Shown here piece after piece: positions 5,577 to 14,856 of a DNA stretch of 15,349 nucleotides. The notes beneath the pieces were generated by a model, which was not told where the DNA came from, searched no databases, and was given only the letters and a program-made list of their open reading frames with translations. Position numbers and translations under genes: made by a program. Each line of letters starts with the position of its first letter. The stretch's first letter is position 1. Origin of the DNA: Pyrrhoderma lamaoense (lineage: Eukaryota > Basidiomycota > Agaricomycetes > Hymenochaetales > Hymenochaetaceae); assembly GCA_002794735.1 (NCBI GenBank), contig NBAZ01000069.1:1-15349 (forward strand), given 5' to 3'.

Positions 5577-7453
5577 TTAAGTACTTGCCACGGAGGGCCG
5601 CAAATCCAAAAAACGAAAGTCATCCGGATGCCAACTCATTATGATCTTCATCTCCCAGCTCATTCGTTCTACTAGATGGTCCCAATCTCGATTTTCGCCT
5701 AGTTGTAACAACTGTCCCAAAGACATCTCGTGTAAGCCTGGGACGTCCGGTTCATCGTAGTGTATCTGTAAACGACATTCCCAGTAAGCTAGCTGCTCCT
5801 TGATATCTTTTACGAGTTGTTCATAATGGTGCATTGCAAAGACATGTCTTCGTGCCGGAGGGTTCCAGTAGTACGAGCTGAGAGAATCCTCGTTATGTCG
5901 TGACCCGTAAATGACTGGGTGCCATAGTAGCTTGCGATATCTTCCAAGATGCGGAGCCATTTGAGTCCAAGTTATGCCGAACCGTTCTTTCATAATCGCG
6001 GGTGGTTGGTATATGATATGGTCGAGGGGTAGAGTAGTTCTTTGAAGGTTATACTTGACGTTACGACCTGTTTGATACTGCCAAACCCAAGCAGTGATGA
6101 CCCATGTTGGTAAGTGTAATACATACCATCGTTGAAGCATGAGGGACATCAGAGACCATTCAGCATCAGAGCGCGGTTTGCTGGGTACATATGGTAAAGA
6201 TGGTAGATCTTCCTCTTTCATAACATACCGCGACTCGTGTCCGTTTGATACTGCCCAGTGTTCTTCAACTGCTGGTTCTTCTATAGCTAGATCTAGCAAT
6301 TCCTGGTAGTTCACTGGCATGTACACTTCCTTGGGTTCGTATACATCTGTTGGTGTGGCATAGACATTGGGCCATTCGTCCGAGTTGTAGAGTTCTTCCT
6401 CTTGCTCTTCCCATGCTGAATAGATCGTAGTATCGTTTGATGCTCAAAAGTAGATTTCTCCATCATTATAGAAGGAAGCGGGGAGGGTTTGAATGCATCT
6501 TTAACTCGGAGGCATGGCCAGGAGACTCCCAGCGTCGAACCATCTTTGGCCAGAGTATAGTGTCTAAAGTGGTTGTCTGCGAGTAAGAGAGGGTAGTCTG
6601 GCCTGCCAAGACGATTACGATCAATGGACCAAATGCCCGAGGACTTGGGGGAGTGGCGCCATGCGACAATGTCTGCTTGATGCTTCCAGTACTTGACTTC
6701 CTTGTCAATGTCATTAACTCGATCGTAGTCCAGATAGTAGAAGATAAGATCCAAGAGCTCTTGAGGGAACAACCCCGAGAGCGGCATCTGCTTGATCTTT
6801 CTTACCACCATTGGCCAAGTATCTTCGTGCTGAAAGCGGAACATAGGTAGATCACGGTGGTGCCAGATGTCACGAGGATGACGACTCCACTTCGGAGCGG
6901 GAACGTGGAAGTAGGGGTCTGTAAAGTAGAACTGACACCATCCGCACCAACAAGGGCCTTGGATGAAAGAGGGAAGATGGTAAAGGTGAGCATCGGATAA
7001 GATGGGGATGGCCGAGGTAAGAGGTAGCTCCTTCATAGCAAGCTGACACGTCCAGCAGTTACAAGCTGTGGGTATATTAGTTAACTTAGCACAATTATAT
7101 ACCCCAGTTGTCATCCATCGAGCAAGAGTCCGAGTGTCTTCATACGATAAGATATCCGTATTGAAAGGCTCGATCCTGTAAAACCCAAACTCTGCTACTA
7201 GATTAGCAAGAGGATTGTGGTTGGGTTTGATAATGGATACTGCGTTCGTTATACCTTCATTTGTCTGAGTTGGAGGAGGTTCATTCTCGTCGACTACGAT
7301 GTTGCTGGCATTAGAGCTTGTTTCTTCTTCTTCATCTCGATCCAAAGAGGAATCAGAGAGTCCGGATTGGAGAGCACTCTGGATGATCTCGACTGTTTGC
7401 TCGTCGATCGAAGAGGGCATAGAGATAGAAGATGAGGATGACCAGAAAGACAT
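5577..7453 (-). CDS. Trp-rich F-box-like protein gene, coding split across two frames
   Basis: Translation starts at the ATG at 7453. The first frame has a Ser/acidic N-terminus, then two cysteine clusters, CNCWTC (residues 131-136) and CWCGWC (168-173). An F-box-like segment follows at about 228-250 (LFPQELLDLIFYYLD). F-box segments normally bind Skp1 in SCF ubiquitin ligases; that role here is inference. The first frame turns unlike protein after about 6445 and stops at 6311. The -1 frame is open from about 6442 and continues naturally (SAWEEQEEEL...) to a TAA at 5579-5577, giving about 620 residues in all. Either an intron joins them (for example 6540-6416, acceptor ATTCAG, phase 1, 125 nt) or one base has been lost near 6443. 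The C-terminal half is rich in Trp, Tyr and His and resembles the partial protein at 14909-15349. A young retrotransposon now sits 0.3 kb upstream of the start. Confidence 0.55.
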
Positions 7454-7744: not shown

Positions 7745-7749
7745 ACACC
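7745..7749. repeat. target site duplication, left copy (ACACC)
   Basis: These five bases directly before the left LTR are repeated exactly directly after the right LTR at 14852-14856. Five-base duplications are usual for Ty3/gypsy integrases. Confidence 0.95.
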
Positions 7750-8272
7750 TGTCAGCAATGACTAGTTCTAGTACCAGTATTAGTCAGCAGAATGCTTAGT
7801 CAGCAGGGTCTGAAGACAAGGCACAACCAGCATACACTGATATAGACAGAGACAGAGGAGAGGAGGGACAAGAGGAGGGGAGGAACAGTGAAGAGGGAAC
7901 AAAAGGATGTATTAGAAGGTACTAGTCTAGGAGGGAAGACAAGATCAAGACTGGGGGATTAGCTACTGACAGGAGGGGGGTATTTATACATGTGGGAGGC
8001 AGTGTGGGAATAATGAAAAAACCCGTCAGGGTCTATGGCTAAACTATTAGGCTAACTAAGCTGTGCTAGGCTGTGTTAGATGAAACATAAGAAATAGGCT
8101 AAACTATGAGGCTAAGCTAGGCTGTGCTAGCTGAAACATAATAAACAGGCTAAATGAACAGGCTAAGCTAGGCTGTGCTAGCTGAAACATAAAATAGGCT
8201 AATTACAAAGGGGACTAAACCAAATGGGGAAAGATGACCATGGAGAATGATGGAAGATGGTAGAACATGGTG

Positions 8273-8315
8273 GAATATTCTAGAATGTTCTGGAAGGTCT
8301 CAGAATGTTCTAGAA
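8273..8315. promoter_or_regulatory. heat shock element array in the 3' LTR
   Basis: GAA and TTC alternate every 5 bp at 8273, 8278, 8283, 8288, 8293, 8303, 8308 and 8313, with one imperfect unit (TCT) at 8298. HSF trimers bind three or more such alternating nGAAn units. Further in-register GAA triplets lie at 8253 and 8263. It is identical to the copy in the 5' LTR. Confidence 0.75.
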
Positions 8316-8504
8316 CAGATGAGTAAGCAGTGGTGATAAGAGAGAGATAAGATAAGATGTGATGCTTAATAAGACAGCTGAGTCATATGCTGAGTCAGTG
8401 CTTAGTAAGCGACTTATGTAAGCATATTATGTAAGTGATTAAGTAAGCATGCTGACTAAGCTGATTAGGTAAGATGCTTAGGTAATAATGATTAGGTAAG
8501 CAGC

Positions 8505-8568
8505 TTATGTAAGATGATTAGATAATCCACTTATGTAAGATGATTAGATAATCCACTTATGTAAGATG
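8505..8568. repeat. 26-bp tandem repeat, 2 full copies plus a partial
   Basis: The unit begins TTATGTAAGATGATTAG and repeats at 8505-8530 and 8531-8556, with a partial copy at 8557-8568. The other LTR has four full copies of the same unit. Confidence 0.95.
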
Positions 8569-8647
8569 CTTATGTAAGTGCTTAGTCAGCTTATGTAAGC
8601 TGCTTAGTAAGCAAAAAAGCGAAAATAGACTTGGTTTCATAACATTA

Positions 8648-8658
8648 CCCCCTCTCTT
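8648..8658 (-). other. polypurine tract for plus-strand priming
   Basis: The sense strand reads AAGAGAGGGGG, then TAA, then the LTR start TGTTATG. A purine run just inside the 3' LTR is the standard second-strand primer of LTR retrotransposons. It lies 13 nt after the pol stop codon. Confidence 0.9.
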
Positions 8659-8671
8659 AGATTGATTGTCC

Positions 8672-11600
8672 TCAATCATGACTTTGACTTTGAAAAGAGG
8701 GTATGTATTTCATGTCTATAACTCTCAATCTTCTGGGAGCTCTGGGATTTTCTTTATAAAACTCTTCAATTAATTCTTTAGAGTTTTCCAAATGTTCTTC
8801 AGGCTCCCAAGTTCTGCTTTCAACACCATATCCTTTCCAGTGTACCAGGAATTTAAGCTTATTTCTGACAAACTTAGAGTCTACAATGGATTCCACTTCA
8901 TACTCTTGTTCTTTGCCAATAAGCACTGGAGGTGGGGGTGGGGCTTGTTGCTGGTTTTCAAAGGCTGGAGTTGTATAAGGAGACAGTAAGACTTCATTAA
9001 ATACTGGATGTATTCTTCTCCAAGTACTTGGAAGTTTTAGCTTGTAAGCACCTCTATTGACTTTTTCTATTACTTCAAATGGACCATATCTTTTACAGTC
9101 CAGTTTTTTCATAGGTCTTATAGAGGGTAAGTTGGTTGCTTCAAGCATTACTAAGTCTCCTTTCTTGTACTCAATAGATTCACCTTTATTTCTATCATAA
9201 AAGTGTTTCATAATTTCAGCAGCCTTCTTTAAACTGGATTCAACTTCTTCTCTGACTTTCTGCATATTTTTAGCAAATTGTCCAGCTGATTCATTGACAG
9301 GTTCTCTTCTGGGATTGGACCCTTTATATGGATGTAATCCATAATTTACAAAGAAGGGTGAATATCCAGTAGAGGATTGCACTTTGTCATTATAAGAGAA
9401 TTCAGCTATTGCTAACCACTCAGCCCAATCTGATTGTCTATGATTGATATAAGCTCTGAGATACTGCTCAATTTCTTGATTTATTCTCTCAGTCTGACCA
9501 TCAGTCTGGGGGTGATATGCAGTAGAAGGATTTCCAGTAATACCCAACAATCTATACAAGTCATGCATGAAGTTAGACTCAAATTGTGGACCTCTGTCAC
9601 TTATGATCTTTCTGGGAAGACCATGAAGTCTGAAGACTTGATCTCTGTAAATTCTTGCTAACCCCTCAGATGTGAGTTCCATATTAGTGGGGAGAGCATG
9701 AATTTGTTTACTAAATCTGTCCACAATTACACATATTGCATTAAAACCCTTAGACTCTGGTAATTCACCTATCAAGTCAATAGATATAATTTCCCAGGGT
9801 CTAGTTGGTATTTCATTAGGGTTTAATGGAGCATGCTTCTTGTTTCTATGAGCCTTAGTTCTCTGACATGTATCACAACCAGAAACATACAAGCGAATGT
9901 CATTTGTGATTCTTGGCCACCAAAAATTGCGAGTCACTAATTCCTGGGTTTTGTTTCTACCAGGATGACCAGCTACTGTCTCATCATGATGAACTTTGAT
10001 AATTTTAGCTCTCAAAGTTTTATCTTTTGGGACATAAATTTTGTTTTGCCAAGTAATCAAATGATCATTCTCTGCCCAGTCTTTTTCTTTGTTATCAAGT
10101 GCTCTTTTTACAGACTGATCAATTGCATGTGTACTTTCTTTAATGCTTTTAATCAGTTCTGTATCTAATGATTCAATACTTGTGGCTCTGAACCACTCAG
10201 GTTTTAACATGGTAACTCTCTTATTATCATTCTCCCCCCTGTCATGATCAACTCTTCTTGACAGAAGGTCAGCCTTTTTCATTTCTTTTCCAGGCTTGTG
10301 AATGATTGTAAGATCATATTTCCATAGAAGCAGCATCCATCTGGCCTGTCTTCTGTTTAAATCCTGAGGTTCTCTAAAGTACTGAATATTAGCATGATCT
10401 GTCCAGACTTCTACTGTATGTTTGGCTTTATACAAGTATGGTCTCCATTCTTTCAGAGCTTTAACAATGGCTAGCATTTCTTTGTCATAGATGGGATAAT
10501 TTCTTTCCTCTGGTGTCATAGATTCTGACATAAATGCTATGGGATGCCATTTGTTATCTTGCTTTTGAGACAATACTGCCCCAATTGCAAAGTTAGAAGC
10601 ATCTGTTTCAATTCTGAATGGATCATTGTCTGTGGGCACTGCTAAGACTGGAGTAGAAGTGATAGCTTGTTTGAGCTGTATCACTGCTTCTGCTTCTTCT
10701 TTTCCCCATTTCCATCCTGATTTTCCTTTTAACCTGTTAAGTGGTGTGGTAATGTGACTGTAACCCTTGACAAAGCGTCTATAAAATCCACAGAATCCCA
10801 AAAATGATTCTAACTGTTTAACATTCTTGGGTTCTGGCCATTCTTGTATAGCTTTTATCTTTTGGGTTTCCATTTCAATTTTACCACCACCCACTACATA
10901 TCCCAAGTAACCAATTTTGGGTTCAGCAAATGAACATTTAGAGTATCTCAGACATAAGTGATTGTCTTTTAACACTTGTAGTACTTGTCTGACAAGTCTA
11001 ATATGTTCAGATAAACATCTGGTGAATATTAAGATGTCATCTAAGTAGACTATTACTGAGCCCTCCTGTATCAAGTCTTTTAATATAGTGTTCATAAAAG
11101 CTTGAAAAGTAGCAGGAGAATTGGTTAATCCAAAGAACATAACAGTGGGTTCAAACAGTCCTCTATTAGTTTTAAAGGCTGCTTTCCACTCATCACCTTC
11201 TTTAATTCTAATGTTATTATATCCCCATCTAACATCTAACTTTGTGAAATAATTAGACATTTTGGTTTTATCAAGCAACTCCTGGATTAGAGGAATGGGG
11301 TATCTATTTTTAATAGTGCCCTCATTTAACTTTCTGTAATCCTGGATTGGTCTTAATGTACCATCTTTTTTCTTAATAAAGAAAAATGGAGATGCTTGAG
11401 GGGATTTAGAAGGTCTGATTCTACCACTTTTAAGATTTTCATCAAGAAACTGGTCCAGAGCTTCTTGTTCTTTGACTGTCAATGGGTAAATTTTACAGTC
11501 TTTTGGAACAAAGTCAGATTTGGTTTCAATAGCATGATCCCAAGGCCTTCTCTCTGGTAGTTTGTTGAATTCTTGCTCACTAAATACAGTGGGATACTCT

Positions 11601-12373
11601 TGACTAAAGTCAGGTATTACTATATTTTCTTTAACTAGTTGACAAGTCTTAAGTGGAGAATTTATGCTCTCTGAAGTGGATTGAGAAGAATTTGGCATAT
11701 TACACTCCTCTGGGCATCTATCAAAGTTTATAGTGGCTTTAACCCAATCTATGCTTGGATTATGTTTCTTTAACCACTCATGACCAATGAAGATGTCTGT
11801 GTCTCCCAGATTTGTGACAGCCAGATCTATTCTTTCTACATGATTGTGGATAGACAAGCGCATAGAAATATATTCTCTTATTGCACCAGCTTTATTGAGA
11901 GTGCCATCAGCATTGTATACAGGAATTGCTAGTGGTGTTTTCTTTGTAACAAGCTGATGTCTTTTTACTAAACTCTCATTAATGCATGAACCTGTGCATC
12001 CACTATCAATCAATCCTTGAGATTGTATTTGCAGGTTATTATCAAGAGTAGCTAAGAGTATGGGAACAGTAAGTTGTCTACCTTTTCCACCTCTAATAAA
12101 TTTTTTGGGTTCTTTCAGAGAAGCTATTGCAGAAGTCAACTCATCACCTGTCAGCTGATTTATTTGTCTGACTAAGCTTCTGGTGATTTCTTTGGTTCTT
12201 TTGGGGTGTACTATCTGCAACAGTCTATCTCTGGTTTCTTTAAAAGAGGGTACTTTCTTACAGAATTCTGTGGGTTTTGATTCATTACTGGTATTAAAAA
12301 CAACTTTATTTGTACTAGTATTTGAATCATTACTAATGCCTTCCTCTGCCACATTCAAAGTCAGGCTTCCACA
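8672..12373 (-). CDS. pol: pol polyprotein: protease, RT, RNase H, integrase, chromodomain
   Basis: The frame is intact for over 1,230 codons. Residues are counted from the TTG at 12358. The protease has DSG at 118-120. RT spans about 285-460 with LDV (374-376), FGLTNSP and the catalytic YLDD (438-441). RNase H has D586, E627 and D654. Integrase has the HHCC finger (H790 or H791, H798, C828, C831) and the DDE triad D861, D921, E957 with exactly 35 residues between the last two. A GPY/F module lies at about 1089-1110. The C-terminal chromodomain (about 1152-1201) keeps the aromatic cage residues Y1153, W1174 and Y1177, suggesting methylated-histone binding that guides integration. There is no ATG before the protease, and the frame is -1 relative to gag, opening at 12388. 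It is therefore probably made as Gag-Pol by frameshifting at 12379-12373, and the start given here follows that site. No catalytic residue is missing. Confidence 0.97.
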   Translation of the reverse strand, partial: CGSLTLNVAEEGISNDSNTSTNKVVFNTSNESKPTEFCKKVPSFKETRDRLLQIVHPKRTKEITRSLVRQINQLTGDELTSAIASLKEPKKFIRGGKGRQLTVPILLATLDNNLQIQSQGLIDSGCTGSCINESLVKRHQLVTKKTPLAIPVYNADGTLNKAGAIREYISMRLSIHNHVERIDLAVTNLGDTDIFIGHEWLKKHNPSIDWVKATINFDRCPEECNMPNSSQSTSESINSPLKTCQLVKENIVIPDFSQEYPTVFSEQEFNKLPERRPWDHAIETKSDFVPKDCKIYPLTVKEQEALDQFLDENLKSGRIRPSKSPQASPFFFIKKKDGTLRPIQDYRKLNEGTIKNRYPIPLIQELLDKTKMSNYFTKLDVRWGYNNIRIKEGDEWKAAFKTNRGLFEPTVMFFGLTNSPATFQAFMNTILKDLIQEGSVIVYLDDILIFTRCLSEHIRLVRQVLQVLKDNHLCLRYSKCSFAEPKIGYLGYVVGGGKIEMETQKIKAIQEWPEPKNVKQLESFLGFCGFYRRFVKGYSHITTPLNRLKGKSGWKWGKEEAEAVIQLKQAITSTPVLAVPTDNDPFRIETDASNFAIGAVLSQKQDNKWHPIAFMSESMTPEERNYPIYDKEMLAIVKALKEWRPYLYKAKHTVEVWTDHANIQYFREPQDLNRRQARWMLLLWKYDLTIIHKPGKEMKKADLLSRRVDHDRGENDNKRVTMLKPEWFRATSIESLDTELIKSIKESTHAIDQSVKRALDNKEKDWAENDHLITWQNKIYVPKDKTLRAKIIKVHHDETVAGHPGRNKTQELVTRNFWWPRITNDIRLYVSGCDTCQRTKAHRNKKHAPLNPNEIPTRPWEIISIDLIGELPESKGFNAICVIVDRFSKQIHALPTNMELTSEGLARIYRDQVFRLHGLPRKIISDRGPQFESNFMHDLYRLLGITGNPSTAYHPQTDGQTERINQEIEQYLRAYINHRQSDWAEWLAIAEFSYNDKVQSSTGYSPFFVNYGLHPYKGSNPRREPVNESAGQFAKNMQKVREEVESSLKKAAEIMKHFYDRNKGESIEYKKGDLVMLEATNLPSIRPMKKLDCKRYGPFEVIEKVNRGAYKLKLPSTWRRIHPVFNEVLLSPYTTPAFENQQQAPPPPPVLIGKEQEYEVESIVDSKFVRNKLKFLVHWKGYGVESRTWEPEEHLENSKELIEEFYKENPRAPRRLRVIDMKYIPSFQSQSHD

Positions 12374-13323
12374 AAATCCTGTTCTACTCTAGCTAACTCT
12401 GATTCTTTCAGGATATCAACTTCATCAGCCCAAGCTTGTCTCTCTTCAGGTTCCATGCACATCAAGATAGATCTAATCTGTGCTTTCTTCTGAGGACATT
12501 CTCTGGCTAAGTGGCCTTTAAGTCCACATAGATAGCATAAACCATTTCTCCTGGCCCTGTCAATAGAGACATCCATGGGCTGTCCTCTACCACCAAAAGT
12601 AACACCAGTGTTGTCTCTTTTCTCTGGTATTTGGCTGTGTTGTTTGGGGAGGACTGGAGGTTTTGTGTAAGAAGTTGGTTTAGCTACTATGCTACTGGCC
12701 AAATGAAGTTTTCTATCAATTTTAATTGCCATCCTTTTCCAAGTATGGTAATCTTCAGGCTCATCCACCATCTCTGTGATCTTCATGACTACTTTTGGGT
12801 TAACTTTTTCTCTAAGAATAGAGATAAGATATTCATCATGGTTCTCATGGTATTTAGCTGCTCTGATTAGCAAATCAAACTCTTGGAAGAACTCCTCTGC
12901 AGTTTTCTTTCCTTGAGTGATGTTGTTTAGCTTTTCTTGAGCATTAGCTTTCTCATGAGGATCATCAAAGATCTCTTTGAGCCTGGCTAGAAAAGTTTCC
13001 CACTCATCAGTGATAACCATGTCACATTCCTCCAAGTAGTTGTCTGCTCATAACCCAGCTAAGCCATCTGTCATGAATGAGAGAGTGAAGATGATTTTCT
13101 CCTCATCAGTGGTGAGTTTATCTCTGGCTGCTAACAAGTATAACCTCAAGGATTTCAGAAAAGGTTTGAAGTCTTTTCTTTGTCCTGAGAATGGGTTGGG
13201 TTTGGCTACATGGATCTGTCTATGCAGTCTTCTTTTTCCCTTCAATGAGTCACTGAGATGCACACTTGATAACTGGTCAACAAGTGCATCCAGCTGCTCA
13301 GAGGTACTTGAAATATCTGTCAT
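12361..13323 (-). CDS. gag: gag: capsid and CCHC nucleocapsid, interrupted by one TGA
   Basis: The ATG at 13323 opens a 320-codon frame ending in TGA at 12363-12361. The N-terminal part carries FSGQRKDFKPFLKSLRLYL, typical of the start of retrotransposon gag. The central part (EWETFLARLKEIF...KTAEEFFQEFD) matches the Retrotrans_gag core that assembles the particle. A zinc knuckle C-X2-C-X4-H-X4-C lies at about residues 263-276 and would bind element RNA. Codon 92 (13050-13048) is TGA; the frame continues unchanged after it, so only one base separates it from an open reading frame. The segment after the stop has no early ATG, only a TTG at 13035. Gag overlaps the open pol frame by 28 nt at its 3' end. 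Confidence 0.92.
12373..12379 (-). other. candidate -1 frameshift heptamer GGATTTT
   Basis: In the gag frame this reads G GAT TTT, the X XXY YYZ phase needed for a tandem -1 slip. It lies inside the 28-nt gag-pol overlap, 9 nt before the gag stop codon. GGAUUUU is, as I recall, the natural heptamer of red clover necrotic mosaic virus. No downstream pseudoknot was assessed. Confidence 0.55.
13048..13050 (-). other. in-frame TGA inside gag
   Basis: A TGA followed by GCA interrupts gag at codon 92. Flanking residues on both sides fit gag. TGG (Trp) is the likeliest ancestral codon, by inference, needing one G-to-A change. The context is not a CpA dinucleotide, so a RIP-type mutation is not indicated. 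Confidence 0.9.
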
Positions 13324-13905
13324 AGATGAAGTAACTATGGGGTGAACTGAGTGAAGGTACTACTAATCTAGATAAGGTAAAAAATAAAGGGAATAAGCAA
13401 ATATCTACTCTAGGCTATCTAGTGTCTAATTCTAAGAGAAGGCAAGTCAACCTTACTCTATTACACTCTACAAAACTACTTGTGGGGTTTTACTACTGCT
13501 TAAGGGAACACACTCTGCTTGTAACAACAACTCACTAGTGGTTTTGACTATTATCCACTGAGTAAAGGTGTTCAAACTAGTCTCCAGGCCAAGGCCCTTA
13601 AGTTGAGAATCTAGCCAAGGGATAGTGTGTTGTGTATCTAAGTAACTTAGTGCAGAAGTTATCCTCAAGTGAGAAATAACTCTGGACAAACAATCAAAAG
13701 AGTAATGTCCCAAACACTACTAGAAAAGGAAAAGGGACTGGCTTTACTCTTATAGGAATAGTGGTGAGAAAATGGTAGAAGGCTTTAATGGGTATGTCTG
13801 ATAGAAAGTGAACAAGGGTGGGGAAAGAGGTTGGTGGAAACACCACAGAGGTGGTGATAAGAGAGTAACACTAGGAAAGTAGTGATAGAGGGAGTCTTGA
13901 TCTAA
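13324..13905 (-). other. untranslated leader between PBS and gag
   Basis: About 580 nt separate the 5' LTR from the gag ATG. With R-U5 this gives a leader near 785 nt. It holds a minus-strand frame of 81 codons (13713-13468) with no recognisable motif, best read as an upstream ORF or chance. Packaging or dimerisation signals would be expected here but cannot be seen directly. Confidence 0.6.
13893..13903 (-). other. primer binding site for a self-primer
   Basis: Two nt after the 5' LTR, the sense strand reads AGATCAAGACT. This is the exact reverse complement of AGTCTTGATCT, the first 11 nt of the RNA predicted to start at 14108. No TGG-starting tRNA-type PBS is adjacent to the LTR. Tf1 of fission yeast uses the same arrangement, also with 11 nt. 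Confidence 0.75.
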
Positions 13906-14107
13906 TGTCAGCAATGACTAGTTCTAGTACCAGTATTAGTCAGCAGAATGCTTAGTCAGCAGGGTCTGAAGACAAGGCACAACCAGCATACACTGATATA
14001 GACAGAGACAGAGGAGAGGAGGGACAAGAGGAGGGGAGGAACAGTGAAGAGGGAACAAAAGGATGTATTAGAAGGTACTAGTCTAGGAGGGAAGACAAGA
14101 TCAAGAC

Positions 14108-14144
14108 TGGGGGATTAGCTACTGACAGGAGGGGGGTATTTATA
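14108..14144 (-). promoter_or_regulatory. core promoter of the retrotransposon: TATA box and initiator
   Basis: The minus strand reads TATAAATA at 14144-14137. About 30 nt downstream is CCAGTCT (14110-14104), a full match to the YYANWYY initiator with its A at 14108. TATA would lie at -36 to -29. A start at this A also gives exactly the 11 nt complementary to the PBS, which is independent support. The same elements occur at 7988-7981 and 7952 in the other LTR. Confidence 0.7.
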
Positions 14145-14192
14145 CATGTGGGAGGCAGTGTGGGAATAATGAAAAAACCCGTCAGGGTCTAT

Positions 14193-14352
14193 GGCTAAAC
14201 TATTAGGCTAACTAAGCTGTGCTAGGCTGTGTTAGATGAAACATAAGAAATAGGCTAAACTATGAGGCTAAGCTAGGCTGTGCTAGCTGAAACATAATAA
14301 ACAGGCTAAATGAACAGGCTAAGCTAGGCTGTGCTAGCTGAAACATAAAATA
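14193..14352. repeat. three imperfect tandem repeats of 49-60 bp in U3
   Basis: Each unit starts GGCTAA and contains a GCTGTGCTAG-like block and a GAAACATAA ending (14193-14252, 14253-14303, 14304-14352). The same array lies at 8037-8196 in the other LTR. They sit 50-210 bp upstream of the TATA box, so they may act as promoter elements. Confidence 0.85.
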
Positions 14353-14427
14353 GGCTAATTACAAAGGGACTAAACCAAATGGGGAAAGATGACCATGGAG
14401 AATGATGGAAGATGGTAGAACATGGTG

Positions 14428-14470
14428 GAATATTCTAGAATGTTCTGGAAGGTCTCAGAATGTTCTAGAA
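14428..14470. promoter_or_regulatory. heat shock element array in the 5' LTR
   Basis: GAA/TTC units alternate in perfect 5-bp register at 14428, 14433, 14438, 14443, 14448, 14458, 14463 and 14468, with one imperfect unit (TCT) at 14453. Five contiguous perfect units plus three more is far above the three needed for HSF binding. The array lies about 285-325 bp upstream of the TATA box within U3. Confidence 0.75.
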
Positions 14471-14659
14471 CAGATGAGTAAGCAGTGGTGATAAGAGAGA
14501 GATAAGATAAGATGTGATGCTTAATAAGACAGCTGAGTCATATGCTGAGTCAGTGCTTAGTAAGCGACTTATGTAAGCATATTATGTAAGTGATTAAGTA
14601 AGCATGCTGACTAAGCTGATTAGGTAAGATGCTTAGGTAATAATGATTAGGTAAGCAGC

Positions 14660-14775
14660 TTATGTAAGATGATTAGATAATCCACTTATGTAAGATGATT
14701 AGATAATCCACTTATGTAAGATGATTAGATAATCCACTTATGTAAGATGATTAGATAATCCACTTATGTAAGATG
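14660..14775. repeat. 26-bp tandem repeat, 4 full copies plus a partial
   Basis: Full copies lie at 14660-14685, 14686-14711, 14712-14737 and 14738-14763, with a partial to 14775. The copies are identical by eye. The sister LTR has two. Confidence 0.95.
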
Positions 14776-14851
14776 CTTATGTAAGTGCTTAGTCAGCTTA
14801 TGTAAGCTGCTTAGTAAGCAAAAAAGCGAAAATAGACTTGGTTTCATAACA

Positions 14852-14856
14852 ACACC
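14852..14856. repeat. target site duplication, right copy (ACACC)
   Basis: This is an exact copy of 7745-7749, directly abutting the LTR end ATAACA. Confidence 0.95.

Follow-up and report, generated by a model that had tools for sequence, protein, structure and literature searches.

A predicted self-primer in a complete chromovirus

How does the retrotransposon on contig NBAZ01000069.1 of the basidiomycete Pyrrhoderma lamaoense (assembly GCA_002794735.1) prime its reverse transcription? The window, i.e. the whole stretch of 15,349 nucleotides (nt) that was analysed, contains on its minus strand (14851-7750) a complete chromodomain Ty3/gypsy chromovirus flanked by long terminal repeats (LTRs). 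All features of the element given below are on this strand. Self-priming of the Tf1 type is the best explanation for its layout, and we regard it as highly probable. A preliminary description of the window had proposed that priming is independent of transfer RNA (tRNA). This proposal is supported by exact pairing, by co-variation across families and by the lack of a fit among the tRNAs read, with 14108 as the predicted start of the RNA.

The 11-mer AGTCTTGATCT occurs on the window's minus strand at 14108-14098 and, as a sequence match, at 7952-7942, that is, once in each LTR. Its exact reverse complement, AGATCAAGACT, is present a single time on that strand, at 13903-13893, and represents the putative primer-binding site (PBS). 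The LTR ends with ...TGACA at 13906 and is separated from 13903 by the bases TT, which places the PBS 2 nt inside the LTR, as described earlier. The claimed 11-nt reverse complementarity is exact (11/11), and all coordinates hold. As the flanking bases are mismatched on both sides (C/C at 14109/13892, T/T at 14097/13904), the pairing is exactly 11 nt long, again in agreement with the preliminary description. The TATA box TATAAATA was found where it had been placed, at 14144-14137, and starts 36 nt upstream of 14108, the first base of the predicted primer. The segment 14108-14098 is predicted to form nt +1 to +11 of the element's RNA. The primer/PBS layout is confirmed.

Could such a match have arisen by chance? 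Of the 5,245 interior 11-mers, two find their reverse complement in the 5' LTR, namely the PBS and one other, and this second match is the point in favour of coincidence. Among 20,000 LTRs simulated with a first-order Markov model of matching dinucleotide composition, the required word turned up with a frequency of 0.00095. This amounts to a probability of about 0.001 for one family, and four additional families repeat the layout with different letters.

Co-variation across five families

The genome (30.65 Mb, 72 contigs) was searched for relatives of the element. A DNA search returned 33 places belonging to the window's own family (F1), 10 of which span the whole 601-nt query from LTR to leader. 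A search with the reverse transcriptase (RT) gave 69 matches, and the 5' ends were read for part of these. Four more families (F2 to F5) have the same layout with different 11-mers in the same two positions, each pairing at 11 of 11 positions. Primer and PBS are AGTTTCAACCT and AGGTTGAAACT in F2, AGCTTTGTTCT and AGAACAAAGCT in F3, (T or A)AAGTTAACCT and AGGTTAACTT(A or T) in F4, and ATTGAAATCAA and TTGATTTCAAT in F5; pairing extends one or two bases past the 11 in F3 and F5. The PBS stands two bases after ...ACA in every junction that retains one. In F1, the LTR end follows from its two LTRs together with the target-site duplication, and the ends of F2, F3 and F5 are backed by other LTR copies that enter unrelated DNA at this point (L082, L094, L028).

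Primers and PBSs of the same family pair at 55 of 55 positions (with one F4 version used), and the next best of 120 ways of dealing out the PBSs reaches 49. Segments taken from different families pair at 2-8 of 11 positions (mean 4.7). Across the six primer/PBS versions, none of the 11 pairs is limited to a single Watson-Crick type. The preliminary description had suggested comparing related copies for co-variation of the two segments, and this comparison succeeds across the five families but not within F1. Both segments are identical in the 9 F1 copies with a retained PBS, which leaves the other families as the source of the co-variation. Because these two places are occupied by different letters in four further families, a chance match is untenable; on the strength of this co-variation and of the Markov rate it was rejected, and its probability is negligible.

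The first pair of F4 varies between copies. It is T-A in L070 and A-T in L089, L090 and L094; since L095 and L104 have T opposite T, the double change may reflect drift of a terminal pair.

In total, 32 junctions between a 5' LTR and the interior were located (F1 10, F2 6, F3 8, F4 6, F5 2). Perfect 11/11 pairing was found in 26 of them (F1 9, F2 6, F3 6, F4 4, F5 1). L021 repeats the L006 junction and was dropped from the counts. Also uncounted are rows with different DNA behind an LTR end, or behind a weak resemblance to one (L020, L028 twice, L082, L086 at 420, L094 at 470), which seem to be 3' LTRs, solo LTRs or spurious matches. L080, L082, L083, L085 and the vicinity of C14 (L092/L105) yielded no self-primer junction.

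No fit among host tRNAs

Many LTR elements are primed by a tRNA. In the window element, too, a host tRNA might prime with its 3' end or with an internally cut fragment, and the match to the LTR would then be a coincidence or have another role. tRNA priming is widespread among LTR elements (for plants, see the pertinent passages of PMC6317226), and the same genome contains an example. A distant gypsy element at C59 has a perfect 18-nt PBS for tRNA-Asn (18/18), found by the same scan at position 163 of L098 (C59:4726-6226), two bases after ...ACA. The RT identity of this element is 28.5% over the tblastn alignment and 32% in pieces from the RT search. It also serves as a positive control, as its detection means that the scan finds tRNA sites where they are present. 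A further point for a tRNA is the size of the set that was read, namely 23 sequences with 13 anticodons, some differing only by the end base, from 30 of the 61 listed tRNA genes.

None of these 23 sequences fits the F1 PBS. The site does not start with TGG and has no tRNA 3'-end match; the best alignments leave 6 of 11 positions mismatched at the 3' end and 4 of 11 internally. The earlier statement that no tRNA-type PBS is visible is thus borne out for the sequences covered. In addition, tRNA priming leaves unexplained why five different PBSs each match their own LTR. It was rejected on these two grounds, and we consider it very improbable.

Predicted RNA fold

In F1, the primer:PBS pairs have predicted probabilities of 0.75-1.0. 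When the F1 RNA (14108-13823) is folded alone, this duplex is predicted to form. It is extended past the TT bulge by predicted pairing of TGTC, right after the primer (14094-14097), with GACA at the LTR end (13909-13906). Inside the duplex, a predicted stem of 12 pairs between 14074-14086 (5' arm) and 13918-13931 (3' arm) closes the unique 5' (U5) region. The minimum free energy of this fold is -60.2, as compared to a mean of -41.3 for shuffled sequences (z -5.1), and none of 200 shuffles was as stable. Of the 7 family sequences folded, 6 favour the duplex.

A 5' end so much more stable than its shuffles could also be expected if the paired segments formed a real RNA structure that serves translation, packaging or dimerisation instead of priming, and co-variation speaks for pairing, not for its purpose. 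However, the pairing segment lies at the place expected of a PBS, 2 nt inside the LTR, where no tRNA-type site was found, and the layout equals that of self-primed Tf1 in the account excerpted from PMC7175516. A structural role without priming therefore seems most unlikely to us.

RNA start and points against self-priming

The distance from the start of the TATA box to the primer is 34-36 nt in all 23 measured copies of F1, F2, F3 and F5, which supports the predicted RNA start at or near 14108.

Several observations weigh against self-priming. The preliminary description had placed a YYANWYY initiator at 14108. By eye, CCAGTCT does fit, but the motif is weak and, while it fits at the primer starts of F1 and F2, it does not match those of F3 or F5; it thus carries little weight. 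The F4 primer is 64-65 nt away from the TATA box in 5 of 5 copies measured (the stretch of the sixth, L104, begins too near the primer to include a TATA box). Judged by this distance, F4 is outside a simple +1 rule, and either its RNA would start unusually far from the TATA box or its primer would not be at the RNA end. The F4 copy on C53, one of two F4 sequences folded, prefers another fold, with a duplex probability of 0.05-0.08. The third, crossing duplex of the Tf1 ‘pretzel’ was sought in the 3' flank of the PBS and did not exceed shuffled flanks in F1 (fraction 0.197), F2 (0.27) and F5 (0.88); it was marginal by this comparison in F3 (0.06) and F4 (0.087 for C53, 0.013 for C19). The LTR ends of F2 to F5 are not set by two LTRs of one element, and the end of F4 is defined by its ...ACA ending alone. 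Finally, four of the 32 junctions pair at only 9-10 of 11 positions (L076 and L086 in F3, L095 and L104 in F4), the two F3 copies being altered on the primer side only, and the PBS is lost in two, L071 (F1) and the copy on C2 (L091/L106).

Some of these copies have further peculiarities. In L071 (C10:1933-3433), the LTR edge at locus position 1013 is the exact start of the change that removed the PBS, and the roughly 30 nt after the LTR end were not seen in the other loci compared. The C2 copy (C2:2641882-2644600) is a chimera in which an F5 LTR (96% to C44) passes, after its last base, directly into an F4 body (81% to C19); it lacks a PBS because the body begins about 20 nt beyond that of F4. 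In F4 (L070, L089, L090, L094, L095), a direct repeat of about 20 nt occurs twice downstream of the primer, with CTTGTAGAGTTCTCTCGCAG in L070 and L089. Its complement lies upstream of the primer, exact over 14 nt in L089, L090 and L094 and shorter in L070 and L095. The stretch between the repeat copies is intron-like, beginning with GTAAG and running into CTAAC...TTGTAG.

Element anatomy and neighbouring reading frames

The 5' LTR (13906-14851, 946 nt, TGTTAT...CTGACA) and the 3' LTR (7750-8644, 895 nt) are flanked by target-site duplications GGTGT at 14852-14856 and 7745-7749, respectively. The two LTRs differ in length by one 52-nt block and one single nucleotide and are otherwise identical where aligned; the 52-nt difference corresponds to two units of a 26-nt tandem repeat (14643-14779 vs 8488-8649). 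As the LTRs show no mismatch where aligned, the insertion looks recent. The polypurine tract, AAGAGAGGGGG, was read directly at 8648-8658, 3 nt ahead of the 3' LTR.

The gag gene (12361-13323, start codon read by eye) encodes Retrotrans_gag and zinc knuckle domains according to a Pfam scan, with the CCHC zinc knuckle near its end. In the window copy it is truncated by an in-frame TGA (13050-13048), a position at which gag is open in all seven other F1 copies read (L002-L008). Among the 69 RT matches, stop codons within related RT copies are mostly TGA, with fewer TAG and TAA. The pol gene (8672-12388) encodes protease, reverse transcriptase, RNase H, integrase and SH3_Tf2-1 domains, and a chromodomain after the integrase (PF00385, E 4.8e-15, pol residues 1153-1202). 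It is in the -1 frame relative to gag, with an overlap of 28 nt (12388-12361); neither a slippery heptamer nor an in-frame ATG was seen by eye near its start. Tf1, a single-ORF (open reading frame) element, differs from the window element in this respect, as gag and pol are in different frames here, and the likeness to Tf1 is one of layout.

Outside the element, a homologue search with the neighbouring ORF at 6311-7453 gave no hit at E 0.001. The minus-strand ORF at 1284-1964 resembles, by eye, the RNase H end of a Ty1/copia polyprotein and had no match in the Pfam scan at 0.001.

Relation to known elements

In the list of 120 proteins for the window's RT region, the top identities among named entries (58-63%) belong to Lyophyllum, Trametes, Sanghuangporus, Armillaria and Amanita, which are Agaricomycetes, and to other fungi. 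Amphibian, grass and alga proteins in this list also score highly, at 41-49% identity. P0001, a protein that shares 99% identity with the RT region and represents 391 member sequences, originates from a 5,409-base ENA contig. A scan of viral contigs detected no relatives. In a tree built from RT sequences without named Tf1 or sushi sequences, F1 to F5 cluster with proteins of Agaricomycetes and a single unnamed protein (support 99/98), apart from the elements at C59 and C6; C59, C6, F5 and Berkeleyomyces have long branches. For the C6 element, comparison of two stretches revealed no LTR pair.

According to the excerpted literature, self-priming has been demonstrated for Tf1 and is predicted from sequence for other elements. 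The pertinent passages describe Tf1 as self-primed (PMC7175516) and self-priming as common in the Tf1/sushi group (PMC10085805). Like Tf1 and Tf2 of Schizosaccharomyces pombe, the window element is a chromodomain Ty3/gypsy element that would not use a tRNA (passages of PMC7175516 and PMC10085805). With the Tf1/sushi chromoviruses, including Tj1, Tosmo1-3 and Tcry1, it shares a PBS complementary to the RNA start in the LTR, which is a prediction in our case, as well as the chromodomain and the CA at the LTR end. The ‘pretzel’ folding predicted for that group (like its other features, according to PMC10085805 and PMC4600332) has a crossing duplex that in F1 is not above shuffles. The element also resembles Tcn1 of Cryptococcus neoformans, by description only, as a basidiomycete Ty3/gypsy element for which self-priming has been proposed; for Tcn2-5, potentially novel priming was proposed in the same section of PMC7175516. 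Most plant elements of the Tcn1 clade are predicted to be self-primed in the portion of PMC6317226 cited here, and for SM-Tcn1 of Selaginella the corresponding portion of PMC2864245 reports neither tRNA priming nor self-priming.

Self-priming is thus already described for Tf1/sushi elements and predicted or proposed for the Tcn1 clade. The window element would accordingly belong to a known kind, as a further self-primed chromovirus and not as a case of a new mechanism.

Proposed mechanism and implications

Start site, cleavage, priming and rewriting of the PBS are modelled here on the anatomy of the element and on Tf1. The RNA would begin at or near 14108, 36 nt past the start of the TATA box. 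Its first 11 nt would fold back on the PBS and be held there by TGTC/GACA and the U5 stem, whereupon the element's RNase H would presumably cleave after nt 11. The freed 3' end of the 11-mer would then be extended through U5 and the terminal repeat (R), followed by the usual strand transfers. Minus-strand strong-stop DNA would be expected to start opposite 13904, joined to AGUCUUGAUCU.

Plus-strand synthesis would copy the attached 11-nt primer into a new PBS, so that the LTR segment and the PBS stay matched through change. If the daughter PBS is a copy of the attached primer, we infer that the two should remain matched automatically. Such copying would account both for the perfect pairing at 26 of 32 junctions in spite of differing family words and for the occurrence of primer-only changes in copies that may no longer move.

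A more speculative extension, which we rate as possible but rather doubtful, is that self-primed families each have a private primer word that is free to drift, though only jointly with its PBS, which would insulate each family from the primers of the others. The match would be renewed in every cycle when the attached primer serves as template for the new PBS during plus-strand synthesis. The F4 word, placed behind an inverted-repeat arm (14 nt in three copies) at 64-65 nt from its TATA box, might in this case be cut from inside the RNA.

The genome of P. lamaoense thus holds five families predicted to be self-primed, with different primer words, together with a tRNA-type gypsy element as an internal control. 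Five families in one genome allow a comparative test of co-variation, and its outcome favours self-priming. The natural variants among them, i.e. primer-only changes, lost PBSs, the chimera of LTR and body and the displaced F4 primer, lend themselves to studying how the match between primer and PBS is maintained.
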